A stretch of DNA of 64,000 bases from contig NZ_CP071051.1 in the NCBI RefSeq assembly GCF_017161405.1, forward strand, positions 558,001 through 622,000. The letters are read 5' to 3'. The DNA is from Leucobacter sp. CX169 (lineage in GTDB: Bacteria; Actinomycetota; Actinomycetes; Actinomycetales; Microbacteriaceae). Positions 24,476 through 25,731 of this stretch are shown piece by piece (positions within the stretch are counted from its first letter, which is position 1; every line of letters starts with the position of its first letter). Below the pieces are notes generated by a model that worked only from the letters and a program-made list of their open reading frames with translations, was not told the DNA's origin and searched no databases. The position numbers and the translations under genes are program-made.

Positions 24476-24955
24476 ATGCTGAGTCGAATGGACACGTCAT
24501 CGGCGATCGAAGAGTTTTGGCGCGCGATTCGCGCCGAGCGACCAGAGCTTTCGGAAGAAACCCCCGAGGCTTGGGCGTTTGGCGCAACCTCAGCGCAAGC
24601 CGATGGGCTGCTCGCCCTCGTGCTCGCCGGGACGAAAACCGGTACTGCCTCATCGCTCTGGGACTACGAGGAGACCGGTGACCCCCTCCCGACCGAGGGT
24701 GAGCTGAGCATCATCCTCGACGGGGCAGGCGTGCCGCAGGCCGTCATCGAGACCACCGAGATCCGGGTCGTCCCGTTCCTCGAGGTGTCCGCGGAACACG
24801 CGCACGCCGAGGGCGAGGGGAATCGCACGCTCGCGCACTGGCGCGAGGTGCACGAGCGCTACTGGCGCCTGCACTCCGAGAACCCGCGCGGGTTCGAGCC
24901 CGAGATGCCGGTGGTGTGCGAGCGGTTTCGGCTCGTGCACCCGCTATCGGGCTAG
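24476..24955 (+). CDS. ASCH-domain protein
   Basis: A 159-residue small protein with the ASCH fold (PUA-like, RNA- or nucleoside-related). The characteristic segment LVLAGTKTGTASSLWDYEETGD holds the conserved Gly-Thr-Lys and Thr/Ser positions, and HWREVHERYW fits the later helix. The start may be ATG 24476 or ATG 24488; TATGCT at 24475-24480 would make 24488 a leaderless start of a 155-residue protein. Some ASCH proteins are amidohydrolases for modified cytidines; the activity here is unknown. Confidence 0.85.
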   Translation: MLSRMDTSSAIEEFWRAIRAERPELSEETPEAWAFGATSAQADGLLALVLAGTKTGTASSLWDYEETGDPLPTEGELSIILDGAGVPQAVIETTEIRVVPFLEVSAEHAHAEGEGNRTLAHWREVHERYWRLHSENPRGFEPEMPVVCERFRLVHPLSG

Positions 24956-25230
24956 TTCGCGCCCTCTGTGCTCGGCGGCTTTGGTGCCGGGCACTTCAGC
25001 TGCGTCGGTAGGCCGGGGCCACCGCGGTCGATCCGGTGGTCCTTCATCGGCTGCGTGCAGACGGGACACCTCGGATCTACCGGAGCGACGGGTGCTGGCT
25101 CGTTGCGGTCTCCGAGCTGCGAGGGTCCCTCGATTTGGTACAGAAATCGCTGCACGGCCGCGTAGGCCCCCGGAACGCCGTCGTAGGGACTTCTGTGCCA
25201 GAGCCGTAGCTTCTTCTCTCGTTTGCCCAC
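24952..25230 (-). CDS. Small CxxC protein divergent from an OhrR-like regulator
   Basis: A 92-residue protein starting at GTG 25230 (MGKREKKLRLWHRSPYDGVP). Two cysteine sites, CPVC (residues 55-58) and LKCP (~80), with an intervening HRIDRGGPG, suggest a small zinc-binding domain. A longer frame reads upstream through the operator and the regulator gene but is antisense noise. The GTG lies inside the left arm of the palindrome at 25217-25269, and TAGGGT (25238-25243 on this strand) ends 7 nt before it, so the mRNA is probably leaderless and directly under the operator. The function is unknown. The stop overlaps the ASCH stop region tail to tail. Confidence 0.72.
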   Translation of the reverse strand: MGKREKKLRLWHRSPYDGVPGAYAAVQRFLYQIEGPSQLGDRNEPAPVAPVDPRCPVCTQPMKDHRIDRGGPGLPTQLKCPAPKPPSTEGAN

Positions 25231-25269
25231 AAACAAAACCCTATCATGTTTGTTTGTGGGCAAACGAGA
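25217..25269. promoter_or_regulatory. Long palindromic divergent operator/promoter (OhrR/MarR type)
   Basis: Perfect 21-bp inverted arms (25217-25237 and 25249-25269) are separated by 11 bp. Each arm itself contains the dyad GTTTG-N4-CAAAC, so two identical operators face each other. The left one covers the GTG start of the 92-residue protein; the right one ends at the -10 candidate TAGCAT (25270-25275) of the regulator gene. This is the layout expected for a repressor controlling itself and a divergent target. Confidence 0.8.
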
Positions 25270-25281
25270 TAGCATTGAGCT

Positions 25282-25731
25282 ATGGAGAAACTCCCGATCG
25301 ACGCCCTTGAACTTGATCGACAGGTCTGCTTCGCGCTCGCGGTCGCGAGCCGGGGAGTGATTGGGATCTATCGGCCGATTTTGGAGCCGCTGGGGCTGAC
25401 GCACCCGCAGTATCTCGTCATGCTGGCGCTGTGGGGAGAGCCGCCGGTGCGCTTCCGGGACCTCGCGGACATGCTGCGGCTTGATCCTGCCACGCTGACA
25501 CCCATCGTGAAGCGGCTCGAGCAGTCGGGCCTGATTGAGCGCGCCCCGCTCGAGGGTGACGAGCGCACGTTCACGCTCGCGCCTACCGCGGCGGGCGTGG
25601 CGCTGCGGGAGCAAGCATTGAATGTGCCGCCCGCCGTGATCGACCGGCTTGGCATGCCGATTGAGCGGCTGATGGCGCTCCGCGACGAGCTCGCCGCGGT
25701 GATCGAGGCGGTGGATCGCGGGCCAAGGTAG
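25282..25731 (+). CDS. MarR-family regulator, OhrR-like
   Basis: A 149-residue winged-helix repressor. LDRQVCFALAVASR at residues 11-24 places a cysteine at position 16, matching the peroxide-sensing Cys of OhrR regulators. The dimerisation and wing parts (YRPILEPLGLTHPQYLVMLA, LRLDPATLTPIVKRLEQSGL) also follow the OhrR subgroup. TAGCAT lies 6 nt before the ATG and there is no Shine-Dalgarno, indicating a leaderless mRNA. It sits behind the double-dyad operator, so autorepression is likely. No ohr peroxidase gene is adjacent, so the divergent 92-residue protein is its only obvious target here. Confidence 0.88.
   Translation: MEKLPIDALELDRQVCFALAVASRGVIGIYRPILEPLGLTHPQYLVMLALWGEPPVRFRDLADMLRLDPATLTPIVKRLEQSGLIERAPLEGDERTFTLAPTAAGVALREQALNVPPAVIDRLGMPIERLMALRDELAAVIEAVDRGPR

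Follow-up and report, generated by a model that had tools for sequence, protein, structure and literature searches.

An OhrR-like MarR regulator paired with a small zinc-ribbon-like protein: a candidate divergent switch in Leucobacter and other actinobacteria

The closest described systems are those of OhrR in Bacillus, Xanthomonas and Streptomyces, which combine a MarR fold and an N-terminal sensing cysteine with a divergent gene arrangement. In OhrR the sensing cysteine is contacted by a tyrosine, at a position that proves to be replaced in the proteins considered here. In S. avermitilis, ohrR and ohrB2 have a common intergenic region with two boxes, according to PMC6034001. For E. coli, PMC12825309 describes promoters that fire in both directions from one symmetric −10 element, including a 23-bp class. 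Our literature searches found nothing on OhrR in Microbacteriaceae or in Clavibacter. Among the matches listed for MarR in Leucobacter, for divergent OhrR and leaderless genes in actinobacteria, and for MarR with zinc ribbon, none appeared to describe the gene pair set out below.

The window analysed is a 64,000-nt stretch of Leucobacter sp. CX169 (GCF_017161405.1, NZ_CP071051.1, 558,001–622,000), whose genome is a 2.94-Mb single contig. It contains the following divergent genes:

25282–25731, plus strand: OhrR-like MarR-family regulator, 149 aa, with a single cysteine, Cys16, and His41 where ohr-linked OhrRs have Tyr
24952–25230, minus strand: small CCHC zinc-ribbon-like protein, 92 aa, GTG start, C55-x2-C58-x6-H65-x14-C80, found in 210 of 299 family genomes, model pLDDT 83.4

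The pair resembles the OhrR systems in the MarR fold, the N-terminal cysteine at the sensing position and the divergent arrangement. Unlike them, the locus lacks an ohr partner, the regulator falls in a separate clade and carries His41 for Tyr, and the partner gene encodes a small zinc-ribbon-like protein. The candidate operator also differs, being GTTTG-N4-CAAAC or TTAGTRYACTAA instead of ACAATTNAATTGT. It does not follow the TACAATTNAATTGTA-like OhrR operator, since GTTTG-N4-CAAAC differs from the boxes published in PMC6034001.

The regulator compared with OhrR

The regulator belongs to the MarR family (PF01047, 58.9 bits, cut-off 24.6) and scores below the cut-off of the curated OhrR model (NF052638, 121.7 bits versus 200). 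Its nearest solved structures by sequence are the Xanthomonas and Bacillus OhrRs, and in alignments with OhrR chains 2pfb and 1z91 Cys16 falls on the sensing position (a serine in 1z91). The N-terminal cysteine, predicted to be reactive, stands in the LxxQ[LV]CF context that is an OhrR hallmark. Cys16, Tyr30 and His41 are present in 72 of 72 in-register regulators of the pair; the rows of two others (L078 and L084) are shifted by indels, and their printed N termini likewise read QVCFAL and THPQY. In 68 of the 74 pair MarR rows, Cys16, in a Q[VLI]C[FY] context, is the only cysteine from residue 7 onwards.

The THPQY of the pair-type regulators corresponds to TYPQY or TYTQY in the ohr-type rows. 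Because His41 stands in place of the tyrosine of ohr-linked OhrR, the chemistry of the regulator may differ from that of OhrR. In a tree of 52 rows, a 99/93 split separates the pair-type group from the four ohr-linked OhrRs, the second OhrR-like protein of the window genome and the two PDB OhrRs (one row, L148, carries the label of another family and belongs to the same one). The earlier note had described an OhrR-like regulator with a sensing cysteine. The aligned Cys16 bears out that description; judged by the tree, the protein is not OhrR proper, as it falls in a clade separate from ohr-linked OhrR. An ohr-type OhrR is encoded elsewhere in the genome, at 2169137.

This second OhrR-like gene is 39% identical to the window regulator. 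At L035 1459–2966 (genome 2169137) it adjoins a gene of the zinc-type alcohol-dehydrogenase family, and no ohr was found in the genome. Of 299 family genomes, 153 have a protein that scores above the cut-off of the Ohr model TIGR03561; in the whole 2.94-Mb window genome this model gave no match, so that the absence of ohr claimed earlier for the window extends to the complete sequence. Two OsmC-family genes are present, neither being Ohr by TIGR03561. Four ohr loci were examined from the 153 genomes with Ohr above the cut-off, and in all four ohr stood beside an OhrR of the other clade (35–43% identical). The best box-like site at these loci was a single 11/14 match, AATTGTGCACAATC, at the start of the adjacent OhrR in L111. 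The idea that the pair regulator controls ohr was discarded, as each of the four loci has its own OhrR.

A widespread family of small CCHC proteins

The earlier note had called the small product a CxxC/C protein and had taken it to be new. The cysteine set holds and can be refined to a ligand-like set of CxxC plus His plus Cys (C55, C58, H65 and C80). The protein is not confined to this genome, as it belongs to a widespread actinobacterial family. A single-sequence query detected homologues in 23 of 59 relatives. A 23-row profile raised this to 210 of 299 same-family genomes, spread over 56 of 78 genera, and for the class an 80-row profile gave homologues in 55 of 393 genomes. Named examples are those of Leucobacter massiliensis (75%) and L. 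edaphi (68%). An alignment of 80 sequences has eight invariant residues (G35, G40, C55, P56, C58, H65, C80 and P81, with a CPxC...H...CP core), and E44, M62, R69 and T76 are nearly invariant. The spacing C-x2-C-x6-H-x9-16-C is kept at 89 of 91 places, L099 and L100 deviating.

It could be argued that the 92-aa ORF is open by chance alone, since the minus-strand frame in which it lies runs for 285 codons without a stop, through the MarR gene as well. Against this stand its conservation in 210 of 299 family genomes and the eight invariant residues. This reading was therefore discarded, its likelihood being negligible, and conservation of the homologues identifies the ORF as a real gene.

The small protein may bind zinc. 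Like known small zinc-ribbon (CPxC) proteins, the family has a CPxC knuckle followed by His and CP, and other family members weakly match zinc-ribbon models, with best E values of 0.0006 (Pfam) and 0.0011 (NCBIfam). It differs from them in a conserved GPxxxG-type segment and helix, and in the lack of a fold match; the window protein itself had no Pfam or NCBIfam model over the cut-off. An AlphaFold model from the 80 sequences (pLDDT 83.4, pTM only 0.43) superseded a poor single-sequence model (pLDDT 60.4), and has a helix at 22–34 and short strands at 66–68 and 77–79 near the Cys/His set. Foldseek and VIA-align searches of the PDB with the fold model gave no relative. The first 20 residues are basic, with a median net charge of +3 (range −1 to +7). 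Our best guess, from the basic N terminus and the putative zinc ribbon, is a redox- or zinc-responsive adaptor acting on a nucleic acid or protein partner.

Many genomes have a second copy of the small-protein family. At three loci (L144 2986–3303, L147 2899–3333, L031 1405–1728) a gene with EIIA-man and HPr domains, which we take to be dihydroxyacetone-kinase DhaM-like, lies close by, and a Dak1 gene is present at the L145 locus. A search for the box described below found nothing upstream of the small-family gene in L031 and none at 10/12 in L144, L145 or L147. In family f36, an ABC-F-type ATPase gene follows the small gene by at most ∼16 bp (L134 3004–4980, by Pfam; L151 2995–4977). As the gap is so short, the two genes may be co-transcribed, and the neighbour is a possible hint of a link to translation. 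In L. massiliensis an ABC-F gene lies ∼1.1 kb past the small gene; it was absent from the other neighbourhood-compared loci outside f36.

Conservation and layout of the divergent control region

The earlier note had proposed looking for the pair in other genomes. From 100 small-protein loci we left out nine repeats of the same place, giving 91 (L055, identical to L006, is still counted). A MarR gene lies within the fetched locus of ∼2–6 kb at 74 of these 91 places, 68 times divergent and close and six times on the same strand; genomes of one genus are not independent in these counts. In other families, the MarR gene stands beside the small gene at 4/4 loci of f36, 2/3 of f34 and 1/2 of f43, and at none in f27 (0/2), f32 (0/1), f49 (0/1) and f5 (0/2). 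Box-like matches outside the family reach 10–11/12 at four f36 loci and 10/12 at one f34 locus; no 10/12 box was found at the other f34 pair or in f43. By this comparison the back-to-back control region recurs across many actinobacteria.

Within the window, the control region consists of the following elements:

25217–25237, no strand: left inverted-repeat arm, 100% complementary to 25249–25269, containing the left box 25221–25234, GTTTGCCCACAAAC
25249–25269, no strand: right inverted-repeat arm, containing the right box 25252–25265, GTTTGTGGGCAAAC, upstream of both −10 elements
25238–25243, minus strand: TAGGGT, proposed −10 for the small gene, at −13 to −8 relative to its GTG, from sequence and a positional peak in 68 divergent pairs
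25270–25275, plus strand: TAGCAT, proposed −10 for the MarR gene, at −12 to −7 relative to its ATG, from sequence and the positional peak in the 68 divergent pairs

As claimed earlier, the 53-bp segment 25217–25269 has perfect arms of 21 nt, each with one GTTTG-N4-CAAAC, and 11 nt between them. By simple arithmetic, such a perfect repeat with a spacer of up to 50 nt is expected by chance ∼1e-6 to 1e-5 times per 64 kb. The centres of the two boxes are 31 bp apart, and the earlier view of them as a twin operator is supported by comparison with relatives. The left box, a putative operator, does cover the GTG of the small gene (25228–25230), and the arms do duplicate its first codons because the right box is an inverted copy of the left. 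With two boxes and two separate −10 elements, the window promoter has a split arrangement. At its far end, the small gene converges with an ASCH-domain gene (24476–24955, plus strand), their stop codons overlapping at 24952–24955 (CTAG).

All 11 Leucobacter-group loci compared, including the window and the identical sequences L006 and L055, have two boxes 30–34 bp apart. Only in the window genome are the boxes perfect inverted copies, the other ten being imperfect. L106 has a box pair at 31 bp and an extra, overlapping candidate box. Across the 68 divergent loci, the best box matched at 8–14 of 14 positions, and at 10 or more in 64. The small genes of these loci begin with rare codons: CGA accounts for 22 of the 25 Arg codons at position 3 (usage 7.6%) and GCA for 19 of the 24 Ala codons at position 2 (usage 8.1%), which points to a constraint at the level of DNA.

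The earlier claim that both genes appear leaderless is supported by promoter spacing in the window, where a −10 element lies 7–8 nt before each start codon at a conserved distance, and by its recurrence in relatives. With start codons picked independently of the −10 element, 43 of the 68 small genes have a TANNNT that begins at −12/−13, against a background that averages 0.7 per offset and peaks at 3; among the MarR genes 37 of 68 have one, against an average of 1.3 and a peak of 8. No start with leaderless spacing was present in 23 of the 68 small genes and 21 of the 68 MarR genes, and a Shine-Dalgarno-like sequence was found in 10 and 11, respectively. In the window, each mRNA would probably begin at or next to its start codon.

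At 15 of the 68 loci, in-frame starts of both genes lie 10–12 nt from the centre of a single palindrome, mostly TTAGTATACTAA, in which TATACT can be read on both strands (in one of the 15, L021, a later start looks likelier). The starts at these loci are ∼22–24 bp apart, close to the 23-bp class of shared symmetric −10 promoters as given in PMC12825309. The arrangement would differ from that described there in that the symmetric −10 would double as the repressor operator and both transcripts would be leaderless. The window itself also differs from the promoters of that account, its two −10 elements being separate and not shared.

Of 18 genomes hand-picked from those with the pair, 15 have a single exact TTAGTRYACTAA, located at the pair; the exact form is missing in G287, G065 and G134. 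A reversed-pattern control matched in one of the 18 (G287). In the window genome, exact GTTTG-N4-CAAAC is found at five places, two here and three in 23S rRNA genes. Global regulation was discarded, the three other exact sites all being in those rRNA genes. A search of the same genome with the looser pattern GTTYGNNNRCRAAC yielded 17 matches on the plus strand and 13 on the minus strand, compared with 1 and 6 for a reversed control. Of the 20 places matched, 10 do so on both strands, and five of these remain once the sites in the window and the rRNA genes are set aside. Four of them (76793, 482020, 1865569 and 2812960) are inside likely genes. The fifth, the palindromic GTTCGTTAGCGAAC at genome position 1554438 (L161 1239), has no likely gene around it by a simple test. 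In the strict operator form, the switch appears from these counts to be single-target, with few or no other targets; because the looser pattern leaves five other sites, this holds for the strict form only.

Regulator loss and the proposed switch

A natural test is provided by 14 same-family loci where the small gene has no local MarR gene; L020 and L025, which belong to another family, and L031, which is a paralogue from a pair-bearing genome, were left out. Six of these 14 genomes have a pair-type MarR elsewhere (143 bits or more). In all six the box is retained at the small gene (10–11/12), and the moved MarR genes have a 9–10/12 match at their own promoter. The other eight genomes have the small protein and no pair-type MarR, and in all eight the box at the small gene is gone, the best match being the usual background of 6–7/12. 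Among 4420 random 110-bp stretches of those loci, 72 reached 9/12 and none 10/12; when stretches preceding long ORFs served as a further control, 3 of 107 had at least 10/12, some of which may be the pair's own box seen through overlapping frames. The association of box with MarR presence has a Fisher p of 3e-4 by genome; five of the six moved-MarR genomes are of one genus, and counted by genus (2 kept, 5 lost) the value is ∼0.05.

In the opposite situation, the MarR gene was retained in 3 of 14 examined genomes without the small protein (from 89 such same-family genomes). The three solo regulators nest inside the pair-type group of the 52-row tree, and the best box matches at their promoters are 10, 9 and 7 of 12. 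At one of them a box is possible, as its best match is 10/12.

We consider it fairly probable that the locus is a self-contained switch in which the OhrR-like MarR represses both itself and the small gene until Cys16 is modified. A dimer of the one-cysteine regulator would bind each of the paired GTTTG-N4-CAAAC boxes, or in most relatives a single TTAGTRYACTAA-like box, lying over two back-to-back promoters. Once bound, it would repress its own gene and that of the small CCHC protein. The dimer would leave the DNA when Cys16 is modified, most likely by oxidation or thiolation. The freed operator would then allow both genes to be switched on together, and newly synthesized regulator would reset the switch. 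That the small protein is the regulated output, as proposed in the earlier note, is supported by comparative evidence, namely box retention, start codons and spacing. The argument offered there, that there is no ohr and the small protein must therefore be the output, is weak, because the four ohr loci have their own OhrR of the other clade, some of them in pair-bearing genomes.

A narrower account is that the regulator controls only itself, the small gene being a neighbour whose promoter is covered by chance. Purely autoregulatory MarR proteins exist, and some genera have a Shine-Dalgarno-like leader on the small gene with the box farther off. Such control is hard to square with a box that stays at the small gene in 6/6 genomes where the regulator has moved and is gone in 8/8 where there is none, and we regard it as very unlikely. 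The signal is a separate matter. Many MarR proteins sense a non-oxidant ligand, such as a metal, an aromatic acid or an antibiotic, and Cys16 would then be structural; the histidine that replaces the OhrR tyrosine in every in-register row (72/72) fits this, as do an operator and a clade unlike those of OhrR. On the other side, Cys16 aligns with the OhrR sensing position and is conserved in the Q[VLI]C[FY] context, as the sole cysteine from residue 7 in 68/74 rows. A ligand of this kind is unlikely, if less so than control of the regulator alone, and we retain a switch released by Cys16 modification as the preferred reading.

More tentatively, and with doubts that outweigh our confidence, the pair may constitute an undescribed actinobacterial redox switch. 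It would join a His-bearing OhrR-like clade to one divergent promoter as its only genomic target. In several genera a single 12-bp palindrome would serve as both operator and shared symmetric −10 for two leaderless mRNAs, and a new redox- or zinc-responsive small protein would be the whole output.

If true, this would be among the smallest regulatory units to study, with one sensor, one operator region and one output in a genome without ohr. It would also give a handle on a widespread small protein left unnamed by Pfam and NCBIfam searches. The natural variants, with a shared −10, split promoters, a moved regulator or a lost one, would suit tests of symmetric-promoter and leaderless repression in actinobacteria.
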